Origin: Planctomycetota bacterium
Lineage (GTDB): Bacteria > Planctomycetota > UBA11346
Reading direction: 5' to 3'
NCBI GenBank assembly: GCA_022841245.1
Contig: JALHRW010000033.1
Span: forward strand, 1 to 33,683
Length of the DNA stretch: 33,683 nt
How positions within the stretch are numbered: the stretch's first letter is position 1; every line of letters begins with the position of its first letter. The notes beneath the pieces are model-generated. The model saw only the letters and a list, made by a program, of their open reading frames with translations, made no database searches and was not told where the DNA came from. The position numbers were made by a program, and so were the translations under genes. Positions 3-24,139 of the stretch are shown here, in pieces.

Positions 3-575
3 GCATGCGCACCGCTCGCCTGGCCGGCCCGGCGCCTCGCGCTGCTCGGGGCGATGGCGGATGGCAAGCTGGCACGGCGCTGGCGGATCTCGCGCGCCGC
101 TGTGCAGGCCAAGCGCCTTGAACTCGGCCGGCCGGCCAGCGATGGACGGGTGACCACCGTGTTCCTGTCGCCGGCGGTGCGCAGCCAGCTCGGCCGGCAC
201 AGCGACGCGGTGCTGGCGGCGCGCTATCGCATCAGCGTGACGGCGGTGCGCCTCGCCCGTCGCCGGGCTGGCATCGCCGGTAGTCGACGGGCACGGCCGG
301 TGGTGTGGACAGCGCAGATGATCGCCGACCTCGCGACCCTGCCGACTGGCGCGTTCTGTCGCACGTATGCCGTGTCGAACCGCACCGTCGCGCTCAAGCG
401 CAGTGAGCTGGGCTGCGCCGCCCCGCGCCGCACACGGCGCTCGCGTTGGACTCCGCAGATGCTCGCTCAGCTGGGTTCAGCCAGCGACCGCGCACTGGCG
501 GCGGCGTGGGGCATGCGCGAGGACACTGTGCGCAAGCGTCGCGCCCGGCTCGGCATCGCAGTCTGGCGAGGGTGA
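3..575 (+). CDS. Protein of four tandem HTH-like repeats (5' end outside window)
   Basis: The reading frame is open from the first bases of the window. The ATG at 54 falls inside a repeat unit, so the true start must lie upstream. Four units of 47-48 residues follow one another, beginning with an aromatic residue at bases 21 (W), 162 (F), 306 (W) and 447 (W). Each follows the pattern aromatic, then LG or a variant, then D..LA...W/Y.IS, then V..R...LG/GI. The first and last units agree at W, L, A, LG, D, LA and W at identical spacing. Each unit looks like a short helix-turn-helix, with basic residues in the last helix, so sequence-specific DNA binding is likely by inference. I do not recognise a named family. 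It lies upstream of an iteron-like array and a Rep gene, so a role in replicon control is possible but unproven. Confidence 0.6.
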   Translation, partial: ACAPLAWPARRLALLGAMADGKLARRWRISRAAVQAKRLELGRPASDGRVTTVFLSPAVRSQLGRHSDAVLAARYRISVTAVRLARRRAGIAGSRRARPVVWTAQMIADLATLPTGAFCRTYAVSNRTVALKRSELGCAAPRRTRRSRWTPQMLAQLGSASDRALAAAWGMREDTVRKRRARLGIAVWRG

Positions 576-1169: not shown

Positions 1170-1191
1170 TTCTAGCTTTACACTCCCGCAC

Positions 1192-1403
1192 GGGATTTCT
1201 AGGGATCCCGTTGGCATAGCCGAGACGGGACGAGCGGCGGGCCTTCGACGTTTGAGGATTTTTCGGGATAGTATAGGATTCTCCTAGTAGCTAAAGGATT
1301 TATAGAGACATGATTGATGAAGCCGTAATTGGGATTTATGAGGATGTAATGGGATTTCTAGAGACGCTACTGTGAGGGATTTTGATGCCTGCCATGGGAT
1401 CTC
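1192..1403 (+). repeat. GGGATTT-core iteron-like direct repeats
   Basis: Copies of (G/A)GGATT or close variants, all on the same strand, begin near 1192, 1255, 1275, 1295, 1331, 1351, 1376 and 1396. The intervals from 1255 onward are about 20, 20, 36, 20, 25 and 20 bases, so most copies are two helical turns apart. Two copies (1295 and 1351) share a longer match, GGATTTNTAGAGAC. The block is AT-rich and ends just before the start of the Rep-like gene. Same-strand repeats phased at 20-22 bp beside a Rep gene are the hallmark of iteron-controlled plasmid origins. Binding by this Rep is inferred. Confidence 0.6.
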
Positions 1404-1439
1404 TTTGCTTTGTATGGTCAAATTGCTACGGTCCCGCGC

Positions 1440-3095
1440 ATGACGCCGGACGGCGAAGTCAGCGTTCAACCAGCAGCGCCATTTGCGCCGCCTATAACCA
1501 CGTCAGTCCTGCATCAGCGTCTCGCCGAATTGACGCCGGTGCGTCAGGCGCGCTCGGCGCAGGGCGATGTGGTGGTGGTGGCCCGCCGCGTCCTGCTGCA
1601 ATCGCCGATCTGGTTCCATTCGCGTCTTGCCGGCAAGCACGCTTTCACTGGTTGGGTGTGGGACGAAGGCCACGGCGTGCGGCGTGGCATCTCGACCTTC
1701 AATTCCGAACCGCTTGCCGGCCGACCCGGGGTCGGCAAGCAGGTTCTCGCCACTGGCGGCCTACTCCGCTTCATCGATCTCGACCTCCTCCTGGCACTGG
1801 CCTATCACTGGCAGGAGACAGGCGAGACGATGATCGATGTCGATCAGGAGACGGTGTTGTCGTGGATCGGCTACCCGCGATTGGAAGTGCCGCCGTATTT
1901 CGAACTGCGCGCCGCGGTGACGCGCATCCAGGCGACCCAGCTGCGCCTCTTCGAGGAGCGCTCCGGCGCTCCGGTCGACATGCGCATCCTGCCGCCGCTG
2001 CTGGTCGAGCCGACCCCCTACAAGGACGGTCGGCGCAATCGCCTGCGCGCCCATCTCGGCGATGGGTGGCTGAGCGAGCTCCGTCGCGAAAACCAGACCA
2101 TTTCGCTGCGCAGCTACCTGCCGCTGGTGCGCCGCATCCGCGAGGCCGACCAGCTGGCGCGCAGCACCGGCACACCGGGCCTACCCGACGCGGCGCGATT
2201 GATCCTGCTGTTCCTCGATGCTTTCCGTACACCGCAGGACGTCACGGTGGTGAAGCTGCCGTGGCTGCATGAGCGCTACGGCGATCGCAAGGTGTCGATC
2301 CCCGACCTGGTGCGCGAGCCCGCCGCGGCGCTGGTCAGCGGAGCGCTCGCCCAGGCCGAGCCCAGCCTCGGTGGCTTCCCCGGCCTGCCCGATCCGCCGA
2401 CCTCGCAGCGCTTCCGCTACCTCGACCCCCTGCATCAGCAGGGTTTGCTGCGCCGTGCCCTCGATCTGCTCGGCGCATGTCAGATCATCACCGGCTACGA
2501 GGCCCACGGCGACCGCCTCGAGGTGCGCTGGCAGGATCCCGCGCGCCTGCCGGTGCCGACGATCGCGCAGCGCTCGATGCGCCAGGCGAAGATCTTCCAT
2601 GTCGATAAACTGACCGGTGCGGTCTCATCGCTCGAGGTGGAGCGCCTGCCCAGCGCAGCGGAGGCGCAGGAAGACGTTCGGCCCACCCTGCCCGTTCCGC
2701 AGCCCGTACCGGCCGAGCCGCCGGCCGAACTGACGGCGGATGCCGTCCCCCCTGCACGCCTGGGCGATCTGCTGCGTACCCTGATCCGCCAGTACTGTCC
2801 GCTCAAACCCGTGCAGATCGCCGGCCTGCAGGCCGCCGGTTGGAGCGACGCGCGGCTGGCGGCGCTGATCGCCACGGCGCTCTACCACCACGAGGTCACC
2901 CCCCTGCCGGGCTCGCACGAACGGGTCAAGCTGCCGACCCGCTTCATCGTCAGCCGCCTGCAATCGGATGCCCCGGAGTCGTGGTCGACCTCCGGCATGG
3001 AGCAGCAGGGCTTCGCGCCCGAGACGGTGAAGGCGTGGTGCGCCGCGCCCGGTGGCCTGTGGGAGCGTTTGCGTCGGCGCCGAGGTGGCGCGTGA
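1440..3095 (+). CDS. Plasmid-type replication initiator (Rep/RepA-like winged-helix protein)
   Basis: The product is about 551 residues. The ATG at 1440 was chosen as start. A TTG at 1410 is in frame and directly follows the last iteron-like repeat; neither has a clear ribosome binding site. The N-terminal half contains LLRFIDLDLLLALAYHWQE, then a helix ending WIGYP, then YFELRAAVTRIQATQLRLFEE. This helix order resembles the winged-helix N-domain of RepA/TrfA-like iteron-binding initiators. A proline-rich linker near residues 415-435 precedes a C-terminal domain of about 110 residues. I see no Walker A motif or primase/helicase signature, so it would act by origin binding and melting. The adjacent iteron-like array is the main support. 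It overlaps the next gene by GTGA, implying translational coupling. Exact subfamily is unsure. Confidence 0.6.
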   Translation: MTPDGEVSVQPAAPFAPPITTSVLHQRLAELTPVRQARSAQGDVVVVARRVLLQSPIWFHSRLAGKHAFTGWVWDEGHGVRRGISTFNSEPLAGRPGVGKQVLATGGLLRFIDLDLLLALAYHWQETGETMIDVDQETVLSWIGYPRLEVPPYFELRAAVTRIQATQLRLFEERSGAPVDMRILPPLLVEPTPYKDGRRNRLRAHLGDGWLSELRRENQTISLRSYLPLVRRIREADQLARSTGTPGLPDAARLILLFLDAFRTPQDVTVVKLPWLHERYGDRKVSIPDLVREPAAALVSGALAQAEPSLGGFPGLPDPPTSQRFRYLDPLHQQGLLRRALDLLGACQIITGYEAHGDRLEVRWQDPARLPVPTIAQRSMRQAKIFHVDKLTGAVSSLEVERLPSAAEAQEDVRPTLPVPQPVPAEPPAELTADAVPPARLGDLLRTLIRQYCPLKPVQIAGLQAAGWSDARLAALIATALYHHEVTPLPGSHERVKLPTRFIVSRLQSDAPESWSTSGMEQQGFAPETVKAWCAAPGGLWERLRRRRGGA

Positions 3096-3754
3096 GGGCG
3101 CGCACCCGTGCGCCTGGCCGGCTCAGCCTGGGTCAGTTCGAGCGCTGGCTGGCGACGCCGGCGGCGCAGGCCTGCGTCCATCGTCGTGGTCGGCCCGGCA
3201 CCGGCGAGCGTCCGTTGGTCGCCGAAGCGGCGCGCTGCTTCCAGGTCGATCGCCGGACCATCGAACGCGCGCTGGTCCGCCTCGCCCGGCGTCGCCGGAT
3301 GCTTGCTGAGCATCAACCGGTCGATGCGCCGACCGCGGCGCTGCTGCTTGAGGCGGCGAAAAGCTTCGTCGTCGGCGATAATGCGACATCGCAACCGTCG
3401 CAAATGCGACAGCCTTTGGAGCATGGCTCGCAACAGGCGAATTCCGCGGAAAAAACCGCATCTTCACCCCCCTCTCGCGCAGCAATGATTGACGCTGTGC
3501 GTGCATTATGTCATGCAGGGTTATTGCGTGCAGAGGATCTGCAGCCCGTCCAGAATCGTACATTGGACGAGCAATTGAATGCGGTTGGACTGCATGCGCC
3601 CGTCCAATCCGCGCCGTCCAAAGTGGTCAACGTGCTGGATGCATCCATTGCAGCGCTGCTGGATGCAGTGGACGCCGTCCAATCGCAGCTGCCGTCCAAT
3701 CACCCCGTCCAACCCCACCTCGATGCCGTCCGCACGGCATTCACCGCGCCTTAA
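3092..3754 (+). CDS. HTH protein translationally coupled to Rep
   Basis: GTG at 3092 overlaps the TGA of the Rep gene (GTGA), giving a product of about 220 residues. The first half is very basic and holds a likely helix-turn-helix: LVAEAARCFQVDRRTIERAL, followed by VRLARRRRMLAE. The second half, from about residue 145, is less basic with alternating short helices, and its DNA carries seven exact GTCCAA/TTGGAC copies. Coupling to rep suggests a copy-number or partition accessory factor that may bind either repeat family. I do not recognise a named family. The gene meets the minus-strand gene tail to tail, and the two stop codons share bases 3752-3753. Confidence 0.5.
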   Translation: MRARTRAPGRLSLGQFERWLATPAAQACVHRRGRPGTGERPLVAEAARCFQVDRRTIERALVRLARRRRMLAEHQPVDAPTAALLLEAAKSFVVGDNATSQPSQMRQPLEHGSQQANSAEKTASSPPSRAAMIDAVRALCHAGLLRAEDLQPVQNRTLDEQLNAVGLHAPVQSAPSKVVNVLDASIAALLDAVDAVQSQLPSNHPVQPHLDAVRTAFTAP

Positions 3755-4345
3755 GCAGCATGCGCCTCTTCGTCCAACACCACGACCAGTTCACGCGACA
3801 GCCGACGGTACCGTCGTGGTGCCAGACCGCAGGTCGCAACGACCCCCTCACGCGAGGCGCATACCGCCTCATGGCAGCGAATCGCAGCGTCAACCAGCCA
3901 GCTGAGCGCAATCTCGGGATGGTTCGCGCACCACGCCATGCAGTGTTCCACCACGGCAGCTTCGACGCGCCAGGAACATACCCTGGTGCGGTCGCGGGGT
4001 TGGTCAGCCCGTCCAATCGCCGTCTGGACCACGATGGACAGGATGGTGTGCTCTGGTTGGTCCAACAGGTGTCCAACAGCTCGGGCAACCACATCGCCAA
4101 TCCGTCCAGGAGAGTCCAATTGGACCAGGCGCTGCAGCCGGAGCGTGCTCGACCAGGGCAAGCGCAGCGACCAACGGACGGCAGGTGTGGCCATGCCCTG
4201 TCCATACTGGACGGCTTACGCGCGTCAACTAGATTCGCCCAGTATACGCAACGACTTACGTTCTGTCCAAACCCCGTTAGTTGGACGACGACCACGACCA
4301 ATGTGGACGACGCCGGCGACCAATCGCCCGCCCATATGCTTGGAC
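3563..4345. repeat. Dispersed GTCCAA/TTGGAC motif array
   Basis: Sixteen exact copies occur in about 780 bases. GTCCAA starts at 3602, 3616, 3677, 3694, 3707, 3772, 4011, 4060, 4071, 4114 and 4265; TTGGAC starts at 3563, 3585, 4120, 4281 and 4340. Fewer than one would be expected by chance. Many extend to CCGTCCAAT. Two copies join into a perfect palindrome, GTCCAATTGGAC, at 4114-4125. Near-matches (CTGGAC, GTGGAC, GTCCAG) lie between them. Copies sit in two convergent genes and in non-coding DNA. Within each gene they fall in different reading frames (for example encoding VQ at 3602 but SK at 3617), so they are maintained as DNA rather than as peptide. A binding array such as a centromere is the likeliest reading. 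Confidence 0.65.
3751..4194 (-). CDS. Hypothetical protein in the replicon module
   Basis: An ATG at 4194 opens a 147-residue frame on the minus strand. Its composition is protein-like: GC-rich third positions, amphipathic helices such as IGDVVARAVGHLLDQ and VVEHCMAWCANHPEIALSWL, and few prolines. The opposite strand also has a long frame here, but that one is rich in Arg, Pro, His and Gln with little hydrophobic patterning, so I prefer this one. It contains five or more cysteines without an obvious metal-binding spacing. I recognise no family. It overlaps the GTCCAA array, converges on the HTH gene, and is divergent from the membrane coiled-coil gene with about 196 bases between their starts. 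Confidence 0.4.
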   Translation of the reverse strand: MATPAVRWSLRLPWSSTLRLQRLVQLDSPGRIGDVVARAVGHLLDQPEHTILSIVVQTAIGRADQPRDRTRVCSWRVEAAVVEHCMAWCANHPEIALSWLVDAAIRCHEAVCASREGVVATCGLAPRRYRRLSRELVVVLDEEAHAA

Positions 4346-4390
4346 AGCCCCATTTGCACGCATCTACTGACCAATCCTACGGATCTGGAC
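4195..4390. promoter_or_regulatory. Divergent intergenic region with TTGGAC sites
   Basis: This separates the minus-strand 147-residue gene from the plus-strand membrane coiled-coil gene. It carries exact motif copies at 4265, 4281 and 4340, plus near-matches including CTGGAC directly before the ATG at 4391. Sites this close to two divergent starts could autoregulate both genes. No confident -10/-35 pair was identified. Confidence 0.35.
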
Positions 4391-5251
4391 ATGCCTGAGA
4401 CTCCATCCCCACCCCCAGGCCGCCCACTTGGTGAGTTCAAAGCTCGCCTCAACCGGGACATCGCCTTTACCATCATCGATGAGCAGGTCCGGGCGGGTAT
4501 CGACCAGGCCCAGCTCACCGGCCGCGGCCTGGCCAAGCAATATGGTTTCGGCTCGCCGCAGACCTGGGTGACGCATCTCAAGGATTGGCGTCAGCAGCAG
4601 GGTTTCGCCACCGCCGTCGAGGAGGGGGTGCGTGAAGCCGAGACCGCAGAGCCGGAGACCCCAGCCGAACCGCCGCATGAAGAGGGGGACGGCACCGCCC
4701 GCTATGGCGTGATCAGTCGCAGCGAATTCCTCCAGCATCAGGAGATGTGGAATCGTCTCCTCGCCGAGCGCGAGGGGGCCCACGCCGAGCGGCTCAAGGT
4801 CGCCCGCCTGGAGGGCGAGAACGCCGGTCGCGCGAGCGGTCGCGACGAGGGCCACGCCCTGGCCGAAGCACGTGAGCGGACGCTTGAGGAGCGCGCCCGA
4901 CGCGAACGTCTCGAGGGCGAGCGCGAGGGCGCGCAACGCGCGCAGCAGGAGCTGGCCCAGCGCTTGCGCGGCGAGCGTCGTCTGCTGGTGACGCTGGCCT
5001 TCATCCTCGGCCTACCGCTCGGCGCCCTGGCCGGCGGAGCCGCGCTGTGGTGGCGCCTTTCGCCCAAGGAACCAACCGTGCCGGCGGTGCCGACGCAACC
5101 CGTCACCCCGACCGACACGCCGCCCGATATTCAAGCCACGCCCATCCCTCCCACGCCAATTCCGGCAGAACCAGCCCCGGCCGTTCCGGCGGAACCGGTG
5201 CCGGCGACTCCGGCGCCCGCACCGGAGGGGGGCGCGAAGCCGCAGCCATAG
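4391..5251 (+). CDS. Membrane-anchored coiled-coil protein with N-terminal HTH-like region
   Basis: ATG at 4391 gives 286 residues. Residues about 15-65 are helical and include LTGRGLAKQYGFGSPQTWV, which could be a helix-turn-helix. Residues about 105-195 are a heptad-like, strongly charged coiled coil (repeated E/R/A/L, as in LAEARERTLEERARRERLE). One membrane segment, LLVTLAFILGLPLGALAGG, lies near residues 198-217. The last 65 residues are a Pro/Ala/Thr-rich tail. Arginines before the membrane segment and few charges after it predict N-terminus inside, tail outside. I recognise no named family. With DNA-binding sites just upstream, a protein linking DNA to the membrane is an attractive inference, but it could equally be an envelope protein such as a TonB-like or mating-related factor. 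Confidence 0.5.
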   Translation: MPETPSPPPGRPLGEFKARLNRDIAFTIIDEQVRAGIDQAQLTGRGLAKQYGFGSPQTWVTHLKDWRQQQGFATAVEEGVREAETAEPETPAEPPHEEGDGTARYGVISRSEFLQHQEMWNRLLAEREGAHAERLKVARLEGENAGRASGRDEGHALAEARERTLEERARRERLEGEREGAQRAQQELAQRLRGERRLLVTLAFILGLPLGALAGGAALWWRLSPKEPTVPAVPTQPVTPTDTPPDIQATPIPPTPIPAEPAPAVPAEPVPATPAPAPEGGAKPQP

Positions 5252-8721: not shown

Positions 8722-8807
8722 TGCTAAGCTTCGGCGACTGTACAAGCGTACCTTTGACACGCGGCAAATAGGTGCACCATGGGCGCCCCCTATTACGTGG
8801 ATCTGCC

Positions 8808-11800
8808 ATGTCCTGCGCTCAGACCGACACCCGCCGCAACTCAGCTCGCTTCAGCATGGCCCTCGTGGGATGGGCGCTCTGCACCCTGGTCATGGCGGCT
8901 GAGCCGGGTCTGCAAGCGACCTATTACGATAATCAGGACCTGACTGGTCCGACCGTCACGCGGGTGGATCCGAACCTGAATTTCAACTGGGGGTCGGGAA
9001 GCCCAGATGCGAGCATCGCTGCTGATTACTTCTCAGCTCGATGGACCGCACTGGTACGACCGCGGTATAGCGAGAACTACACGCTGTATGTCACGACTGA
9101 TGACGGCGTGCGGCTCTGGGTGGATGGACGATTGGTGGTGGATGCCTGGATCGCGAAGTCGTCCACCACGCTGTCCGTGGTTGTTCCGCTGGTTGCGGGA
9201 ACGGCGCACCAGCTGCGCGTGGAATATTTCGAGCTGGCCGGCCAAGCCTCGGCGCGGCTGGAGTGGTCGAGCCAGTCCCAGGTCCGTGAGGTCATTCCGG
9301 GCAGCTGCATGGATGCGGTCGCGGTCGCCCCGGTCCAGCCCATCCAGGTCGCGGCTGCGTTCGTGCCTGCTGGAACCTCGCTGTCCTGGAAGATGCACAG
9401 CGTCGATGTGACATCGTTCGAACTCGAACGTCAGGATTCCTCCGGTGTGTTCGCACCGCTGGGTGCGGTGGCAGGCACCATGCGTGAGTTCGTGGACGTT
9501 GGGACGCCCGTGGCTGGCGTGCCAGTGAACTATCGTGTACGGGCGGTCAATGCGGCCGGTGCCAGCGCATGGATCCCGGTACAGGCCCTGCTGCCGACCG
9601 GTGCCGACGCGACGGGGCTGCTGGCGACGTATTGGGACAACATCGACTTCACCGGCACCTGGGTGCAGCGCATCGATCCCACGATCAACTTCGCCTGGGG
9701 TGCCGGCAGTCCGGCGCCCCAGCTGGGAGTCGATACGTTCTCCGTGCGCTGGACAGGGTTCCTGACCCCGCCCACGACAGGTCTCTATACCCTGTACGCG
9801 ACCACCGATGACGGCGTGCGGGTGTGGATCGACGGAACCATGGTGATCAATGCCTGGGTGGATCGCGCGGCGACCACCAGCACGGCGGTGATCCCGTTGA
9901 CCGCTGGCCAGCCACACGCGATCCGCATGGATTTCTATGAGAAGGGGGGCGATGCGACGGCGCGATTGGAATGGTCCGGCCCGGAGGTCGAGCGGATGGT
10001 GATCCCGGCTGGACAGATGCATGCCGGCCAAGTGCTGCCGCAGACTCCGACCCGCCTGGTCGCTGCCACGACCTCACTGGCCACGGTGCCGATCTGCCTG
10101 ACGTGGCAGGCGGTGGACGCGGACCAGGCCACATTCGTCATCGAGCGTGCCGTCGACGACGGGCAATTCGCTGCCGTGGCGACGGTGTCCGGAACCGCAC
10201 GCACGTGGGATGACGCGACAGCTCAGGTCGGCGGTGTGCTGCGGTATCGTATCCGCGGAGTGAGCAGCCAAGGTGCCGGCGGCTGGGCGCAGGTCGATGC
10301 CACCCTGCCGCCCCTGGCGACGACGCCCGGGTATTGGGCAACGTACTGGGACAATCGGGACTTCACCGGCACCTGGCTCAAGCGCCTGGATCCGCTGATC
10401 GACTTCAGCTGGGCCAGCAGTGCTCCGGCACCGCACATCGCCGCTGACACCTTCTCGGTCCGCTGGACCGGCGCGGTGATCCCGGTGGCCAGCGGCACCT
10501 TCACCTTCCATGCCACCTCGGACGACGGCGTCCGTCTGTGGGTGGATGAGTCCTTGGTGATCGACAGCTGGATCTACCGCTCGGCAGCGACCAGCACCGG
10601 CACGGCCGAACTCACCGCCGGCGCGGTGCACCAGATCCGCATGGAGTTCTTCGAAGGCGCGGGCAATGCGACGGCCCGGCTGGAATGGTCCGGCCCTGGT
10701 GTCGCGCGCGCGCTGGTTCCGGCCATCCAGCTCGCCAGCAGCGTCGCGCCATCGATCACGGCCGCGGCACGCGCAACCCCGGATCCGGTAAGCGGCAACT
10801 CCGCTGCCGTGGCGGTGACCGCCACCGATGATGGTCCGTCTTCCGCCCTCACCTACACCTGGAGCGCCAGCGGCCCTGGCCAGGTGACGTTCACCCCCAA
10901 CAACAGCAACGCTGCGCAGCAGGCGCAGGCGAACTTCCAGGCGGCCGGCAGCTACGAGCTGACGGTGACCGTACGTGATGCCGGCGGACTGAGCACCACC
11001 AGCATGGTACCGGTGACGGTCGTGCAGACGGCCACCAGCGTCGTCGTCACGCCAATCGAGGTCGAGATCCCGGCAGGTACGTCGCAGACCTTCACGGCCA
11101 GGCTCCTCGATCAGTTCGGCGCTGTCCTTGCGTCACCCTCCAACGTGGCTTGGACGGTCAGCGGCGGCGGTGGCATCGTCTCCACCGGCGTCGTTACGGC
11201 TGATTTCACCGCCGCCGGCTGCGGAGGCGTTGGACAGCACACGGTGACCGGCTCGGTCGCCGGCTTCAGCGGCACGGCGACGGTCGTGGTGAGCACCACC
11301 GGCGCCATGCCCGCCATCCGACCGCCGTTCACCGCCAGCGGCACGGTCGGCATCCCATTCAGCTACACCATCAAGGCGTGCAACGGTCCGACCGGCTTCG
11401 CCGCGACCAACCTGCCCGCCGGCCTGAGCGTCGATGCCGTCACCGGCGTCATCAGCGGCATGCCGCAGGCGACCGGCGCCACCACGGCGACCCTGCTGGC
11501 CAGCAACGCCCATGGCACCGGGACGGCGAGTCTGGCCTGCTCCATCGCCATCGGCACCCCGGTCATCACCTGGGCGGATCCCGCCCCCATTCCGGCTGGC
11601 ACCCTCCTGAGCGCCAGCCAGCTGCATGCCACCGCCTCGGTCCCGGGCAGCTTCGTCTACACCCCGGCCGTGGGTACGGACCTGCCCGCCGGTTCGCACC
11701 AGCTGTCGGTGGCATTCACGCCTGCCGATACCGCGAACTATCTTCCAGCCACCGCCACGACCACGTTGGTGGTCCAGGCGCAGGTGCCGGTGATCACCTG

Positions 11801-14800
11801 GGCGGCTCCGGCCCCCATCGTCTACGGCGACGCCCTGACGGCGGCTCAGCTGAACGCCACCACCACGGTCTCCGGCACCTGGGCCTACCAACCGGAGTTG
11901 GGGATCATCCTGGAGGCTGGCACCCATCCGCTGACCGTGGTCTTCACGCCGACCGACCTCACCCGCTACACCACGGCGACGGCGGAAGTCAGCCTGGTGG
12001 TGCAGCAGCGCGTGCCGGCCATCACCTGGTCGAATCCCGCGGCGATCACCGCCAGCACGGCCTTGTCGGCCTCCCAGCTGAATGCCACGGCCTCACTGCC
12101 GGGCAGCTTTGCGTACAGCCCAGGTCTGGGAGCCATCCTGCCAGCTGGTACCCACACCCTGACGGCGGTCTTCACCCCCACGGATGCCGTCAACCATACC
12201 AGTGCATCGGCCACGGTCGCCCTGACCGTGCTGGCCACCCAGGAACAGACACCGTCCCTGACCTGGAGCGTTTCCAGCGGCGCCATTCCGGCTGCCGGTG
12301 GCAGTGCCACCCTGACCGCATCCCTCGATCAGGCAGCAAGCGTCACGGCCACGGCGCAGATCTGGTGGAGCGGCTTCGCCGACGTGACGTCGTTCGAAAC
12401 GCTCCCAACCAGCATCAGCATTCCGGCCGGTGCCACGTCAGCGACCGTCACGGTGACCACCGCGCCCAACGCCACATTCGGCCGGGCTGTGACCCTGCAG
12501 GGTCTCCTGGTTCATCCCGACGGTTGCGTCGTCGGCGCCACCCAGACGGCGACGATCGATGTGGCAGCCACCCCGAAGCTCCCCCAGGTCAGCTGGCGTG
12601 GGTCGGATGTCCACGTGTTCCAGGGCGAATCGGCGGCATCATTGCAGGTGACCCTGGATCGCGTCGCCAGCACGGATCTGCACATCACCTACAATGTCGC
12701 GGGTACGGCGGTCGCTGGCGCGGTGGACGGTGACAATCATCTGCAGCCAGTCTCGGCGGATTATCTGATGCTGTCGGGAACCCTGCTGATCCCCAGCGGC
12801 AGCACATCAGCGACGCTGGATGTGGCCCTGGGCGACGCTGCTACCGCGACGGACGAGCGCACGGTGGTCCTGGGCCTCACCGCCGGCGCCGCCTACCGCC
12901 TGGGAGCGACGACCACCACGACGGTGCGCATCGTCCCCCGCGGCACACAGCCTCCCGCTCTTGCTGCCCCGATCATCGACCCGCCGTCGGGGAGCTTCCT
13001 GGATCACGTGCTGGTGCACATGCAGGCCAGTCCGGTGTCGGCTGCGGTCTGGTACACCATGACCTCTGACGGCACCACTCCGGCGAATCCGGTGCCAGGT
13101 GAAGCCCAGCGCTATCGGGATGGCGTCTCGCTGTCTGCCGGCTCCTACCGCATCAAAGCGGTCTCCGCATGGTCCACCACGTCGGGATGGACGGCCGGTC
13201 CGGCGGCTGAGGCGCGCATCCTGGTCCAGGCTTCCGGGAACGATGGGGACGGCGGTAACGATGGCAGCGGACCGATCAGCCCTCCTGCTGGGGAGCTCAC
13301 CTCGGTGGTGTCGCCGGCATGTCTGCAGTTCACCGTGGATCCCGCGAGCAACCTGCAGGTGACGGTGTTTGCCTGCGTGGAGACGACCGATCAGGATGGG
13401 TACACCCAGCGGCAGATCTATGCTGCCGTTCCGGCCCAGGTGGACGGAGCAGGACGTGGCTGGGTCAATGTCCCGCTGCACCCGCGCAGCACCACCACGG
13501 CGCTGATCGTGGGTGTGGATGCGCTCGGGACGCGCACGCAGACGCAGAAGACCATCACGTGGACGCCGACGGATCTGCTCGACGGCACGCAGCCCGTCGT
13601 CATCCGGGCGGGCGACTCCATCCTCGCCTGCCTGGGGCAGCCCGCCCAGTCGGCAACCGCTTCGTCGCAAGCGAGCGCTCCGCCCGCGGGCTATGGCACC
13701 GTCCTGGCCGCCAGCACCGTCGATCCCGCTGCCCTGCCGTATCTCATCGCCTCCGGCATACCGGGATTCCTGCCCATCCAGGCGCAGGCCGGTGAGCCGG
13801 TGATCCTGCAGTACCCGCGATCGGGCTCATTCAGCCCCCAGGTCACCCGCACCGATGGTTCATCGGTGCAGACCAGCCGCAGCATCAAGGCGACCGGTGC
13901 CCGCTTCACCGACCCGGCAGGGCCGCTGCTCGCGCAGACCGGCTTTCCGCGTCCGGTCTCGGTGAACATCGATCCGCTGAGCGATGGCTATGTCGAGGCA
14001 TTCATCGAAGACGGCAGCGGCAGCCTTTCGTCCGGCTCCGGCGAACAGAGCATCTCGTTGACCGTTGACGATTTCCTCGACGCCTCCGGAAGTGGCTGGG
14101 GGCCGTGGACCATCAACCATCCGCGGGTCGTGCTTCGCACGACAGGTCCTGACAGACTCATTATCGCATCCAGAGAAATCACAGCGTTCAAGCTGGCCAT
14201 GGAGCCGGTCATGATGTGGTCCTTGGGTCGGATGAATGTTATCCCACATATCTCGGGGTCGCTATTGAGCAGTTCCGAGTTAATCGTCGACGGGAAAAGG
14301 GCGACATTGTCCTGGACTCAGTCGCGAGACACAGACATAGGAGTGGGTTTTGACATAGGCATTATTCCGGTATGGAAAACAAGCCCAGACAAGAATGTAT
14401 GGGGTTCTATTGATGTCCGGCAGAGGGGGGCAAAGTCTGACATACGATTGACATCCAGCACAGATATCGGGTTTCCGCAGCGAGATGGAGTGGAGATCCA
14501 GACCGCATCAAGCGGCGGGGAATGGAACCTCGTTGTTGGCGGCAAGACCCTGGGCGAGCTAGCCGAGTATTTTGCTGTGCCAGAAGGCGAGGAGCTCTTC
14601 GCCTATCTACCAGACGATTTGTTTATTCGTCAGTATGGTGAAGTGTACGATGTTTGGCGGGCTGTCCTCCCTGTCTATGCGCCAGTTCGTTTTAAAATAC
14701 CAAATTCTCCGATAATTGAATCCAGATTGTCGGTAACGCCCCCGTTGGAGCTGACGGAAGATGAGCAGCCGTTCTCGGAGGGTAGAATAACGTACGGCTT

Positions 14801-17800
14801 CGCCGGGAGCAGCGTTTCTGCTCAAATATCTACGAGTAGTATGGTTGCATTTGATTGGGGTCGCGTGCAGGTCCTGGGCCATACGTGGCAAATAAGCGAA
14901 TGGGGCACCGAACCGATTGTCATATCCGTTGGCGATTCGGTGACGCTGGCGGTTGAATCAGAGGGGACCCCCGGGCGATTCAAGGATAGGACATATTACG
15001 ATCCTGAAGGCAGAATTTATGTCTCTAGGGGAGTGCAATTACCGATGGATTTAGCGATGAAACTGCTGGTCGATCCGTCGTATGCAGTTACGCCAACCGA
15101 CTCCGGCCTAAGAGTCGAGCAGAGCTTTTCCTATACAGAACCTGGTTCCTATACAGCTAAGATGTCCATAAGGAACAGCATCTTCCCCTTGGCCGGTATT
15201 TCGGGCGACGATTGGCCAGGATCTCCTGCGACCTACTGGTTCACCTCGACGGTAGATGGGCATACAGAAATCAATTCGAATTGGGTATGGATATTGGTTA
15301 CTGGAGAGAAGATGGGGGAGTCCTCCAACGGGTATGCGTTTACTGACTACAAGGAACCGAACGAATTGCCGCCATACCAGAAGGATGTTGTGCTAACCGA
15401 TGTTTCGGGTCGCCTTGAGATCGTATCGCTTCGCGAAAGCGGCACGGTCTTGGTGTTTGGGGCGAATGGAAGTCTGACGCAACATCGTTCCGAGCAATAC
15501 TCCGGGGACGGATCGGGCATGATGGCGTCGTCAATTAGCGACACTTTCGGCGTCAAGGACAACAAATGGCGTCGCGACGACGAATGCGTTCTGAAGATCG
15601 CCGCAACGGACAACGAGAATCGCCCGTTCAACGGTTCTGCTCGCATCAGCCGTATTACTCCCAGCGTAGGCATCTCGCCAGATGGCGGTACCCCCACGCT
15701 AGATGTCGGTGGTGGAGCATCGGTGTGCACTGCCAACGGTAATGTGATGCAGATCATCCCCGTCGTGAATCGCGGCGGAAACCAATTATCGCTGACGATG
15801 ACCTACAATAGCCAGGAAGGCCTGGATCATGGCTACGGCCCCGGTTGGCGCACGAACTGGGATATGGAACTGCTGGGTGGCTACTTGGTCGACGAGACGG
15901 GCGCGCGGGTGGCCCAAACGGGCCCCGCCGGCGGCCCTGCCTATATCAATACGGGGAAGAGCATCTCCCGCCGCGATGGCACCTGGCTGGACTTCGACGA
16001 TCTGGGCAAGCTCACGCGCATCCGCCACGTGAATGGCCGGACCTGGTCGGTGGAGCGGAACAGCGACGGTTTCATCACCACGGTGACCGATTCCTGGGGC
16101 ACACCGGATCTGGTCTTGCACCCGAAACCCGTCGAACGGAACCGCCAGACCGGCTTGTCGGCCTTGTGGATCAGACAGGACGGAACCTGGGACGTCGCCA
16201 TGTCCGGGAACCCGGTTGTCACCAATGGCGCCCAGGCGTGGAAGTTCGCCTACCATGGCGAAGACAAGAGCTATGCGCTGTCTGAGATGACCATCACGGG
16301 ATGCAGCGTCGCTGACGCGGCGAATCGCGGCATCATTCCTGCCACCCACACGAAGTCGTTCACCTACGAGACGATCACCGAATCGAACCAGTTGTTCGGT
16401 CAGCAGGTCAACTACGCGCGCTGCACCGAGGTGAAGATCGGCGGCGAGCACATCTGGGCGATCGCCTACACCAAGGGTCAGGACACGGCTGCGGATGTCC
16501 TGCAGCGCTCGCGCACCGTCGTGACGGATCCGCTGGGGCACACCACCACCTGGTACCAGCCGACCTGGGGTTCCTGGACGCACCTGATCGACGCCGGCGG
16601 CGTCGTGCATCGCCGCGAATTGAAGAACAACGTGCTGTCGACCTGGACGCAGGTCGGCGAGGAGAAGCCCGCAGGCACTCCGTCGACCGGCCATCGCGAG
16701 GACGAGGTGGTGGTGACGTTGGACGGCGTGACGCGTCTGCCGCTGCGCACCCGTCGCCTCCTGAGCTCGACCGGGGTCGAACAGGTGACGGACTACGCCT
16801 GGAATACGCAGAGCGGTAAGATCCCTGAAGGCATGGCGCTGCTCAATCGGATCACCCAGTTCGCCGTAGAGGGGATCGACGGGAGCGGGAGTCCGGTGGA
16901 TCTGGTGTATGATCGGACGTACTACCTGGGCGGGAAGCAGGCGGGGCAGCTGCGCCAGAGCCGCGGTCCGCAGGGGGTGGTGACGAACGAGGTGAACAGC
17001 GAAGGTGTGCTGACCTCGGTCAAGGATCCGAACGAGCAGACCTGGAAGATCCGTGAGACGGTGGCTGGCCTGCGGTACACCGAATCGACTCCGGCAAGCC
17101 GTGGGACGACGATGACGGCCTCGACCCGCGATCAGTCGCTGCCAGGGCAGATCACCCGTCCGACGGGCGAGGTGCTGGAACTGACATACGACGCTTTCGG
17201 CCGGGTCATCACGACGACGGACGTGAAGACCGGTGCGACATCGTCCACCGTGTTTGGCGCCTTCGGCGAAGTGCTGCAGAGCACGGACGTGGACCAGCGC
17301 GTGACGACATGGACCTACGACAGCCTGCTGCGCGCTGCGCGCCAGCATGTCGTTTTGCCGGATGCCAAGCCGGGCCCGCCCGGGTCACCAGCACCCCCGC
17401 AAACGGCGACGGTTCCGGACGTGGTATGGAACTACACGAAGGACACCCTCAACGGCAGCACCTGCTGGCTGACGACGCAGACCCGGGCCGGCATTCCCCA
17501 GGCGCTGAGCAAGCAGTGGCAGGATGCCTTGGGTCGGACCGTCCGGAGCCAGCAGTTCCACAGCAGCGGCGTCAGCGCCGCCGGAATGATCACGAGCAGC
17601 TATCAGGCCCAGACCAGCACCTGGACATACGGGTCGTCCGGGACGGCCGGCCGTGTGCTCGAGCATGCCACTGGTGAGGGCGTCCACCAGCTGGTGACCA
17701 CCTATCAGCATGACTACGCCGGCCGTCTGCTGCGCAGCGAAGCTCAGGTCGAGGTCGAAGGTCTCAAGCCGTCGCAGGTGTGGACCCGGAACAATCTGGG

Positions 17801-20800
17801 CTGGCTGTTGTCGACCACCAGCGCGAGCGGGGCGATCGCCTGGACGACCTACGACCACGCCGGCCGCGTGGTGCGGCAGGTGAATCCCGCCGGTGGCTGG
17901 ACCTGGACCGGCTACGACATCCACGGGACGCCGACCCAGGTCATCTCCCCGGTGCTCAATCCGTCGCGACAGGAGACGGATGCGGATGGCGTATCGACCG
18001 CCGTGGTCGATGCGCGTGGCGTGCGCGACAGCTGGTCGTTCAGTTTGACCGGTTCGGTGCAGCAGATCACCACCGTGCGAGGCCAGGCACCAGGCGACGG
18101 TCCGGCCTCGATCGAACAGACTCTGGTGAACCTGGCCCCATCCCCGGCTGCGGCATCTGGCACCCAGCTCCCCGGCAACGCGGTGGCCCAATCGGTGATC
18201 CTGGATGGCCACCGCAACCAGGCCCAGACCACGCTCGTGGAGCGTGATATAGACGGGTCGCCACTGCGGCTGAGCGGCACCGGCCGACCGGAGCAGATAC
18301 TGCGCCAGTCATCGACAGGCGCCACCTGGCTATCGCAACAGACCAGGCATGAAGCCGACAGCCATGGCGCCTTCAGGGTGGCCAAGCGCACCAGTTCGGC
18401 CGAAGAGACGCTCGCTGGGCTGCCGAAGAGCACCACGGACGAACGCGGCCAAGTCACGACCTCGACGCCGAATGCATTGACCGGCGAGGTGGACTGGGTC
18501 ATCCGCGGCACCGGCGCCCAGCAGCAGGCGACCTGGGTGGCCACGCGTGACGCCTTCGGCCGTCCGACCCTGGAGAAGACGCTGCTGCCCGCCAGCCCCG
18601 GCCAACCGGCCCGGACCAGCGAGCGGACCTCGGACTATAACGCCCTGGGCCAGCTGGTGAGCGTGGCGATCAAGGACGGTCCGACGACGACCTACGCCTA
18701 TGACGTGGATGGCCGCCTGATTCGCGTGACGCGTGGTACGGACGCACCGGTCACACAGTCCTACGATCTGCTCGGCCAGGTGACGGCGGAAGGACCGGCG
18801 GGCCAGCAGACGACGCGCCTGTTCGACGCCCTGGGTCGTCTGGTGCGGACCACGCGTGGCGGGTCGACGACATATCAGGACTATGATCCCGCCCATGGCG
18901 CGCTTGTACGGGTCATCGAGCCAGGCACCCGCGTGACGACCTATGAGCGGAATGCCCGCGCCCACGTCACCGCCGTCCAGCTTCCGGATCAGAGCCGTAT
19001 GGAACTCGGCCGCGACCGTGTTGGTCGCATGGTGTCGCGCAAGCGCTCTGGAGCGACGAGCGGTGAAAGCTGGACGCACGACCCGCAGACCGGTCAGCTG
19101 GCGACCTATCAGGACCGGAGCGGACGGACAACGATGTTCGGCTATACCGCCACCGGGAGCCGCAATGCGATCACGCTCCTGGATGCGCAGGGCACGGTGG
19201 TGGCCAAGCGATTCCCGGGGACTGCTGACCTGAGCGGTGCTGCCGATGGCGCCATCCGCTCCCAGGTCATGCGGGAACTCGTAGGCGCCGACCTGCAGGA
19301 TCCCAGTGCGACCGGCAAGCTGATGGAATGGCGGACGGACATATCGGGGCATCTGGTGGCTCAGGTGACTCCGGCTGGGACCATGAGCAGTGCGCATGAC
19401 GTGGCCGGCACGCCCCTCTCGCGGGCCTTCCTGGAGTACCGCTATGATGGCGCGAACCGGCTGGAGCAGATCTTCCAGGGCGGCAACCAGCAGCTGCGTC
19501 AAAGCTACACCGGCGATGGGCGGCTGGAGCGGCAAGAGCTGCCCAACGGCGTCGTCCGCACGTTGGGTTACGACAACCAGGGCCGACTGTTCCAGGTCAC
19601 CGTGGAGAGCGGCAACGACGCCATGCACTGGGCGGTCCGTCGGGACGACCTGGGCCGCATCCGCTGGGCCTCCGGGCCGGAAGGCGAGACGAGCTACCAG
19701 TATCTGATCGACCGGCTGCACCTGGAGAGCCGGACGGGCAGCGACGGCGAGGTGATCGCCTACGGTCATGACCAACTGGGCAATCTCGAGCGGATGGACA
19801 GCTATGCTGGTGTCGCCAACCGGAGCGAGGCCTTCGGCGGCGGAGCCATGCCGGCGATGCTCATCGCGCAAGCGGGCTCGTGGAGCGTTGCTGACGGACA
19901 TCTTGTGGCGGCCTCGGGCGTCAGCGAGATGACCTGGCTGCTGGCCGAGTCCGGCCGGCTGATCGCTCCGGTGCTCTCCGTGGCGGTGTCAGGTGACGGC
20001 CTGCCGGATATCGCGCTCGATGACGATAATCCCTCGACGGCAGCCGCGATCATAGCACTCGAGGTCAGCCTCCAGGATGGCTTGCGCATGGGACGGCTCG
20101 AGCTGAGCAACGCGGGCTCGCTCGCGGCGCTGGTGCACAGCACGTGGCTCCCGCTGCCGCAGGCAGGTCGTATCGAAGCCAGCGTGGGAGCGACCGGCAT
20201 CGTGGTCGCTCGCTTGACCGATGCGAATGGACAAGGCGCCTCGGTGGAGGCCGCCCTGCTGAGCGAACTGGCTGGTCTCGACAAGGCGACGTTGGAGAGC
20301 GGCAGCGCCACGGCCTGGTTTGATGACCTGCAGTGGGCCACCGCGACGCAGAAGACGGCCTCGGCGCGTCTCCTGAATACGGATCACCAGATCGCCACCG
20401 TCACCGAGGACGTCATCTTCGGCAACGGCAGTCCAACGCAGACCACGACCATCGAGAACACCTACGACGTGGCCGGCAATCTCACGCGTGAAAAGACCAC
20501 GCTGCCGAACGGACAGGTGGTGGAGTCATCAGCCTCCTTCGATGTTTTCGATCGCCTGGTCTCCAGGACCACCCCAGCTGGCACGGTCGCATACCGCTGG
20601 GCTCCTGGTGGGAACATCCCCGTCGGCGAGACCTTCACCGACTCGAGTGGTGGGGCCCCCATCGACACTGCCATCCTGGCTGACGACCGGGGGTTGCTGC
20701 AATATGGCGCGACGCAATACGGCAGCATCGGCACAGGCCAGGCCCTGTGGGAGACCAGGGGCAGCGCACGGATCACCTATGCCATCGACGCCCGCGGACA

Positions 20801-22274: not shown

Positions 22275-22849
22275 CAGATGCTGGAGCAACTGATTGGGGT
22301 TCTCTTTATTTTGACCATTTCGAACGCTATCTTGGCCGAGCCAAGGAGCACCTAGTGCATCGTTTTATTGATGACGTTGGCGATGTTCAGGCGTTCTGCT
22401 ACGATGGAGTTATCGCGGACTGCTGGGCTATCGCTTCCCTCGGCTTGACCAAATGCGCTCCTCGCATTGGTGCCCTTTGCGAAGTTCTATGTGTTGTTGA
22501 TTCAGACCACCGCATATTCGCGGAGTCCTTGTTGTATTCGATGTCCACTTTGGCGACCAAGGGCGAGCGGTTCGGGTGGGGCATGGCTGTTTGCGGTCTT
22601 TCGGAAAGGCTGCGTTCAGCGGGAAGTAAGTCAGGGATGGACGGATTCTACTTTTCCCGTCTAGCTAATGCTCCGCCAGAGTTCGCTATCGTCGACGGTG
22701 GGGGCACTAAGGGTGCTATGTATTCTGCTATCCCGATCAGGGAATCCGAATACCAGTACTTCTATAAGTTCGGGGTCGAGAGATTTGAAAAGGCCCTGGC
22801 GGATTCTGGAGTGGACATTGTTCAGATGTCCCGGCCGTCAATCGTCTGA
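22271..22849 (+). CDS. Immunity protein, suppressor-of-fused (SuFu)-like
   Basis: ATG 22271 overlaps the toxin stop (ATGA), so the two are translationally coupled. The product is 192 residues, cytoplasmic, acidic, with no signal peptide. It has the SuFu-domain pattern: an N-terminal helix, a strand reading VQAFCYDG, a WAIASLGLTKC-like segment, an E-V-L strand, the ALVxG-type core replaced by MDGFYFSRLANAPPEFAIVD, then YSAIPIRESEYQYF and the terminal SGVDIVQMSRPSIV. SuFu-family proteins are known immunity partners of HNH and other nuclease toxins in polymorphic toxin loci. Its role would be to bind and block the HNH tip in the producing cell. Codon use is AT-richer than the upstream RHS core, consistent with the toxin-immunity pair being exchanged as a cassette. 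Confidence 0.7.
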   Translation: MTDAGATDWGSLYFDHFERYLGRAKEHLVHRFIDDVGDVQAFCYDGVIADCWAIASLGLTKCAPRIGALCEVLCVVDSDHRIFAESLLYSMSTLATKGERFGWGMAVCGLSERLRSAGSKSGMDGFYFSRLANAPPEFAIVDGGGTKGAMYSAIPIRESEYQYFYKFGVERFEKALADSGVDIVQMSRPSIV

Positions 22850-22963: not shown

Positions 22964-24139
22964 TTATAGTGGAATGTTAAATTTCTTGGACCGCATGCGT
23001 GATGAGGATCGGACGCGCTTGATTGAATCAGCTATTAGTGCGTCTAATTGTTTGGCCTGCAGTTCATGTAATTTTTGAATGTCCTCACGAATTGCTTGTG
23101 AAAATCTGTCAGTAAATTGTTTTGGTGTTATATGATTAGGTAGATTTGAGATGACATTCTGCATCCTGGCGTTTTGTACCGCGGCAAAGGTGATGGAATG
23201 TGCTGCATTTAATCCGTTGGCCAATTGGTCCATGGCCAGTCCAATCTGAATGGGAACGCCTTTCATAGCGTTCTTTGACCGATCGTAAAAAAAGCGTTCA
23301 AACCACTCTATTAAATTTCTTTCTGGGCGCCTTAGAACCTGATTAATAGATAGCGCTGTGAGCCAATATGCATCTACCATGCCTTGGGCAAGATCGGATG
23401 ACATATTTGACAGCATCTCGATGTTATTCTCGCATGCATCTTGAGACATCTGCTGTTTCATTTCAAGTATTTTGGCTAATTGCCGAGTTTTTCCAAGTTT
23501 TTTGAGAACGCTGTTAACGTTATCCGATGGCAAAGGGGATGCTCTTTCTGATTTCACCTGTTCCTCAGCCCTTCGCAGCAGCCAATCATAGGTGTGAATT
23601 TCGATCCGATTGTCATGTGCTTCTTGATCTATGGATCGTTGGCCGACCTGGGAAATATTGCGATCTCGTCCAATGATTATTATCCCAGGTATCGCAGGTG
23701 TTATGTCTGCCAATTCAAGGCCATGGAATTTCTTTGGCCGACTTGCATAATCTTTGTTGTCTTCAACCCATCGCCTCCAGTCTTTTATTTGGCGAATTGC
23801 GTGACGGAGTTGCCTGGATATGTCGCCGGATTTTGTCAGTAATGGAGCAGTGGGTGACTCGATTTCTACTGCCGTCCAGGTGAATCCTGCCTTGTCCTGA
23901 TCGCCAATCATGAAGTCGGTGATATACTCGGTGCCCAGTTTTTTCTGTGGGATAACATACCTGCCTCGACCGCCTCCCATGTTCGCTAGAAGGACAATGG
24001 GATTCCTCTCAAGAAACAATTGTAATTCACGTTCTGATTTTGACTTTTGAATTAACTGACGAAAACGAAACAGTGAATTTGGCTTGATGGAAGCCCAGAG
24101 AACCAGAGAGCCTTGCCAGGAAAATTCGGTTTTCGGCAT
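22964..24139 (-). CDS. Shedu-like antiphage nuclease (SduA/DUF4263 family)
   Basis: The product is 391 residues. The N-terminal part carries the DUF4263 pattern: SERELQLFLERNP, then LGTE71YITD75FMIGD, then WTAVE92IE94SPTAPLLTKSGD, then LRHAIRQIKDWRRW with Q117. E71, D75, E92 and E94 fit the PD-(D/E)xK-like nuclease core, where VEIE is a common form in this family. The C-terminal 200 residues are helical without a recognised domain. Known Shedu proteins are single-gene antiphage systems that cut DNA. Base composition is clearly AT-richer than the flanking GC-rich genes, which indicates transfer. On its strand TTGACC lies at 24167-24172 and could be a -35 element. Neighbours are a toxin-immunity pair and phage debris, a typical defence setting. 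Confidence 0.75.
   Translation of the reverse strand: MPKTEFSWQGSLVLWASIKPNSLFRFRQLIQKSKSERELQLFLERNPIVLLANMGGGRGRYVIPQKKLGTEYITDFMIGDQDKAGFTWTAVEIESPTAPLLTKSGDISRQLRHAIRQIKDWRRWVEDNKDYASRPKKFHGLELADITPAIPGIIIIGRDRNISQVGQRSIDQEAHDNRIEIHTYDWLLRRAEEQVKSERASPLPSDNVNSVLKKLGKTRQLAKILEMKQQMSQDACENNIEMLSNMSSDLAQGMVDAYWLTALSINQVLRRPERNLIEWFERFFYDRSKNAMKGVPIQIGLAMDQLANGLNAAHSITFAAVQNARMQNVISNLPNHITPKQFTDRFSQAIREDIQKLHELQAKQLDALIADSIKRVRSSSRMRSKKFNIPL

Follow-up and report, generated by a model that had tools for sequence, protein, structure and literature searches.

A planctomycete MAG carries an RPA-type replicon module in which iteron-like repeats, a replication initiator gene (rep), a gene for a small helix-turn-helix (HTH) protein, an open reading frame (ORF) on the opposite strand and a gene for a KfrA-like protein stand side by side. 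From the 3′ third of the HTH gene through the opposite-strand ORF, and up to the start of the kfrA-like gene, runs a dense array of the word GTCCAA in both orientations. The array is best explained as a multi-site operator that also serves a KfrA-type module with a membrane anchor as its centromere-like stability site, a reading to which we assign a probability of about one half. The whole stretch of DNA analysed, 33,683 nt long, is called the window below, and its positions are used throughout.

The GTCCAA array

The module and the array comprise the following features.

1185-1405, plus strand: presumed oriV, eight direct copies of (R)GGATTTNTAGAG immediately preceding rep, most of them spaced by about 20 bp
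1410-3095, plus strand: rep, RPA-type (PF10134-like) replication initiator of 561 amino acids, assigned by homologues
3092-3754, plus strand: gene for a small protein with a weak GntR-like HTH; its 3′ third holds seven GTCCAA copies
3547-4388, no strand assigned: array of 25 GTCCA sites, 16 of them GTCCAA, in both orientations and at irregular spacing
3751-4194, minus strand: small ORF of 147 amino acids, tandem ribbon-helix-helix-like by eye, with six GTCCAA sites
4241-4269, minus strand: promoter-like site of the opposite-strand ORF, with its -35 TGGACA within the GTCCAA site at 4265-4270
4391-5251, plus strand: KfrA-like gene, product with a KfrA_N-like N-terminal HTH, a long helix, one hydrophobic segment and a Pro-rich tail

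The array is genuine. The 16 exact copies of GTCCAA or TTGGAC counted in the initial annotation are all present, within 783 bp of the window, as is the perfect palindrome reported at 4114 (GTCCAATTGGAC, 4114-4125), which lies inside the array. The range given there, 3563-4345, holds for the full hexamer, whose first copy is at 3563 and whose last occupies 4340-4345, but it is slightly short for the array as a whole, the shorter core GTCCA having 25 sites in 3547-4388. The longer form said to be shared by many copies, CCGTCCAAT, does occur, though with four occurrences ‘many’ was generous. Six GACCAA variants lie in 3500-4420. The clear core of the motif is GTCCA(A); EM motif fitting, applied to the array and to positions 1060-2740 of a locus from a genome of the same genus (L015), became saturated with weak sites, and no counts rest on it.

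Clustering of the word at this locus, for which the initial annotation had proposed a genome-wide count, proved to be strong. The window as a whole contains 25 copies of GTCCAA/TTGGAC, against dinucleotide shuffles that average 11 and never exceed 19. The genome (G000; 5.73 Mb in 548 contigs) contains 948, from which 0.13 copies are expected in 783 bp, where 16 are observed; the local density is about 120-fold that of the genome. The Poisson probability of at least 16 copies is about 2e-28, and 3e-21 once multiplied by all hexamers and windows. Half of the genome’s same-strand GTCCAA pairs that lie no more than 30 bp apart (5 of 10) fall in the array. Its edges are sharp: GTCCA is absent from both rep (1682 bp) and the downstream kfrA-like gene (861 bp), and the last GTCCA ends just ahead of the kfrA-like start codon at 4391. 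A DNA-level search found no second copy of the array region elsewhere in the genome. The sites are not contiguous, their spacing varies irregularly from 6 to 239 bp, and helical phasing draws no support from it.

The view, already taken in the initial annotation, that selection acts on the DNA and not on the codons is supported, because the sites use several frames and both strands, have independent flanks and sharp edges, and are confined to a single locus. In the HTH gene, GTCCAA copies use every reading frame (0, 1 and 2), and the opposite-strand ORF has them in two (0 and 1). Past the core, flank identity is 0.269 where 0.264 is expected; since this is no better than chance, the sites arose independently and are not decayed tandem repeats. 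These observations also bear on a neutral origin of the array through local duplication or base composition. Tandem repeats can yield such counts, and two viral contigs (L069 and L124) reach 7-8 copies per 800 bp, though only where the sequence itself is repeated. However, far flanks that resemble each other no more than chance, the use of both strands and several frames, and the extreme genome-wide P value make a neutral origin exceedingly improbable.

In one of these viral contigs, eight GTCCAA copies lie within about 140 bp (L069, 8660-8797) in a GGGGTCCAAA setting; this cluster follows a primase/helicase-like ORF and is unrelated to the array of the window. Viral contigs were rejected as relatives of the array, as the motif scan turned up numerous isolated pairs attributable to chance, besides two instances of tandem repetition. 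No relative sharing the GTCCAA array was found.

Replicon setting and relatives

The gene at 1410-3095, described as a Rep gene in the initial annotation, is supported as such at the level of its family: two of four aligned homologues match Pfam RPA (best E 3e-5), and the window Rep itself has no direct Pfam match. Four further genomes from the host’s taxonomic family contain homologues, with identities of about 30-33% in three of them, and in a wider sample of the phylum only one marginal partial match was obtained outside this family. The nearest named homologues belong to MAGs labelled Planctomycetota and to one labelled only ‘bacterium’. Protein searches of Rep, the HTH protein and the KfrA-like protein against plasmids, and of Rep against viral contigs, returned no match, and a search of one literature collection found no paper on planctomycete replication initiators or iterons. 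Elsewhere in the same-genus genome G001, an ORF on the minus strand (L051 4069-4875; G001:C20) contains a piece resembling the Rep C-terminus (E 7e-5) and, by reading, a hydrophobic tail.

The eight repeats upstream of rep (1189-1405) have GGATTT, or a word close to it, as their core and all run in one direction. Comparable direct repeats precede rep in two relatives, a dozen with the core GATTCCC in G001 (L015 4753-5245) and about 11 with the core GATAAA in G007 (L014 3066-3320), with a spacing of largely 20-21 bp in both. Positions 1185-1405 are presumed to be the origin because direct repeats with spacing of about 20 bp stand upstream of rep here as in G001 and G007; direct repeats with helical spacing in this place are characteristic of iteron-type replicons.

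In iteron plasmids, inc-type arrays occur directly downstream of rep, which is also where the GTCCAA array lies. It might accordingly be an array for replication control, in which extra sites bound by Rep titrate the initiator and handcuff origins. The presumed iterons, however, are all direct, mostly about 20 bp apart and built on a different word, with no GTCCAA in the 1185-1405 repeats and no GGATTT in the array. A second Rep-iteron array is disfavoured because the two sets use different words, and we regard replication control as very unlikely. Among the functions that the initial annotation had left side by side (a new centromere, a replication-control array or a multi-site operator), those of operator and centromere thus remain, probably together.

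The module has one counterpart of identical order and orientation: in G001 (L015), iterons, rep, the HTH gene, the opposite-strand ORF and the kfrA-like gene follow each other as in the window, with module proteins that have diverged from those of the window and with iterons of its own. A second motif in G001, GATATCC, forms a cluster that covers the small ORF and uses several of its frames. This cluster is much weaker, with a score comparable to the chance maxima of control loci; it is suggestive as a parallel of the array and was rejected as independent proof. In G001 the module has tex-like and hemA-like neighbours, identified by eye from their translations (L015 1-10026; G001:C3), as would be expected if it were chromosomal, integrated or on a chromid there.

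In a further member of the family, G012, the gene order is rep-parA-parB, and palindrome pairs (TGGTGCCA/TGGCACCA) recur at 39-bp intervals within the final codons of rep (L016 2245-2350; G012:C582). These are likely parS sites within coding sequence. Judging from the module of G001 and the G012 locus with its palindromes, genes of segregation type, accompanied by an array in cis, seem to occupy the position behind rep, in differing forms.

Elsewhere in the window, an ORF for 4500 amino acids (8772-22274) reads as PA14/Rhs-like with an HNH-like C-terminal end and is followed by a SUFU-family gene (22271-22849, PF05076); the two look like a polymorphic toxin and its immunity gene. On the minus strand, 22964-24139 encodes a Shedu SduA C-terminal domain (PF14082, E 8.5e-18) and is likely an anti-phage gene.

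Candidate binders and the putative operator

The product of 4391-5251 has KfrA_N (PF11740) as its only reported Pfam family, at an E value of 0.014 that lies below the curated cut-off. For the N-terminus of its positional equivalent in G001, KfrA_N is again the only family (E 0.003, below the curated cut-off). The long alpha-helical tail typical of KfrA proteins is predicted as a continuous helix at residues 110-206 (AlphaFold model, block pLDDT mostly 72-96), with a hydrophobic segment at about 198-219 (hydropathy 2.08). The G001 protein likewise combines a KfrA_N-like head, a coil, a hydrophobic segment and a Pro-rich tail, and each of the two proteins has one strong hydrophobic segment. When the G001 protein was used as a query against 98 genomes, only itself and the window protein were returned (E 6e-4), their similarity residing in the compositionally biased coil and tail and not in the heads.

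As controls, 12 further KfrA_N loci from these genomes were examined, 11 of them over the cut-off. None of the 12 has an array of comparable strength, the best hexamer cluster score among them being 8.6 versus about 21 for GTCCAA, and these loci lend no support to such arrays as a general companion of KfrA_N proteins. Nor does any of them encode a C-terminal hydrophobic segment of this kind; in the sub-threshold control protein the hydrophobic segment is N-terminal.

Two other products of the module may bind DNA. The protein encoded by 3092-3754 has a sub-threshold GntR match (E 0.065), weak similarity to its positional equivalent in L015 (P 0.05) and a helical structure model of low confidence, for which Foldseek returned no significant match; homologues in 59 relatives were limited to marginal matches. 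The opposite-strand ORF (3751-4194) has the same position and relative strand as ORF 1399-1923 of L015, with similarity in the first domain (P 0.03). Both of these ORFs read by eye as tandem ribbon-helix-helix proteins, and Pfam and PDB searches gave neither a convincing match nor support for that fold.

Array sites fill the 196-bp divergent intergenic region between the opposite-strand ORF and the kfrA-like gene (4194-4391). The promoter-like site in this region matches at 10 of 12 positions, and two such sites occur there versus 0.4 expected. The location of its -35 inside a GTCCAA site fits autoregulation. A purely transcriptional operator of the HTH, opposite-strand and kfrA-like genes, bound by the HTH, ribbon-helix-helix-like or KfrA-like protein and without a role in inheritance, would account for this coverage, and KfrA proteins are autoregulators. 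As 18 of the 25 GTCCA sites fall within coding regions, the farthest some 840 bp away from the start of the kfrA-like gene, and the sites far exceed what an operator needs, we consider a function limited to transcription unlikely.

A proposed stability site and its closest known systems

In the favoured reading, operator and centromere-like site in one, the array would act in cis, offering a low-copy RPA-type replicon many binding sites for protein, and each GTCCAA would most likely be occupied by a DNA-binding protein that the module itself encodes. Position and published parallels make the KfrA-like protein the preferred predicted binder, ahead of the ribbon-helix-helix-like product of 3751-4194 as second candidate. 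Occupancy of many sites, irrespective of orientation, could build a nucleoprotein complex that represses the divergent promoters between 4194 and 4391. We propose that the same complex would gather the replicon and tether it through the coiled coil and the membrane segment, providing centromere-like stability without a ParA-type motor nearby.

A search for ParA-type P-loops found none in the window or in the G001 contig and recovered the ParA of G012 as a positive control; one match in the window, in the giant Rhs-like ORF, was false. A ParA-type NTPase, as in type I ParABS loci, was not seen in the window, in a search bounded by the contig end. A ParA gene could lie beyond the edge, because the contig is not circular and starts inside an ORF. 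This truncated ORF (3-575, plus strand) reads as repeated HTH-like units and has only a weak AsnC-type HTH match.

With ParA off the contig, the array might be a classic parS bound by the ribbon-helix-helix-like protein, and the KfrA-like protein an accessory. The model for such an arrangement is omega (ParB) of pSM19035, which binds WATCACW heptads (PMC9499535). Like its parS, the GTCCAA sites are short, non-palindromic, numerous and overlap promoters, including that of the putative binder itself. The tandem ribbon-helix-helix reading of both opposite-strand ORFs also points this way, as does the rep-parA-parB locus of G012 with its regular palindrome pairs. The parS of pSM19035, however, consists of contiguous heptads, of which omega needs at least four, and works with a ParA partner (PMC9499535); the window shows neither, the G001 contig too lacks a P-loop NTPase, and the ribbon-helix-helix fold drew no support from Pfam or PDB searches. 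We judge a classic parS improbable.

Parallels exist for the combined operator and stability site. StbA of plasmid R388 stabilises through the stbDRs without its ATPase (PMC3098194), and stability through a repeat array near the binder’s own gene, with no need of an ATPase, is what is proposed here. The stbDRs are 9-bp direct repeats arranged as two groups of five (PMC3098194), whereas the GTCCAA sites are irregular and lie in both orientations.

In head and helix the protein resembles KfrA of the IncU plasmid RA3, which recognises 9-bp repeats, placed in either orientation across the kfrA promoter, and needs them for plasmid stability (PMC7783346). A KfrA_N-like head on a long helix is predicted for the window protein as well, and in both cases short repeats in both orientations lie by the kfrA gene, near replication and stability functions. 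At the RA3 site, OK, the 9-bp repeats number five and share a single promoter (PMC7783346), compared with 16-25 sites here that span about 840 bp and reach into coding DNA. The window protein further differs from RA3 KfrA in its predicted membrane segment and Pro-rich tail.

These last features recall Par of pSK1 and RocS, which combine a winged HTH (wHTH), a coiled coil and a membrane helix, the latter predicted for Par (PMC11500499). Here too, one protein would unite an HTH, a coiled coil and a C-terminal membrane contact with no obvious motor; the window protein matches this layout by model and hydropathy. In Par and RocS the wHTH is of the MerR type and the helix amphipathic (PMC11500499), while the window protein has a KfrA_N-like head and a hydrophobic segment. 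More specifically, planctomycetes may have a motor-free partition system that uses a membrane-anchored KfrA-like protein, a lineage-specific word and a centromere extended across two coding genes, a suggestion that is tentative and still rather doubtful. How a motor-free protein such as RocS or pSK1 Par segregates DNA is an open question, and the replicon module described here is compact and testable. Were the array a centromere, it would be an example of a long cis site kept up within genes, and a KfrA-type protein with a membrane anchor would connect KfrA with membrane-tethering segregation proteins such as RocS and pSK1 Par.
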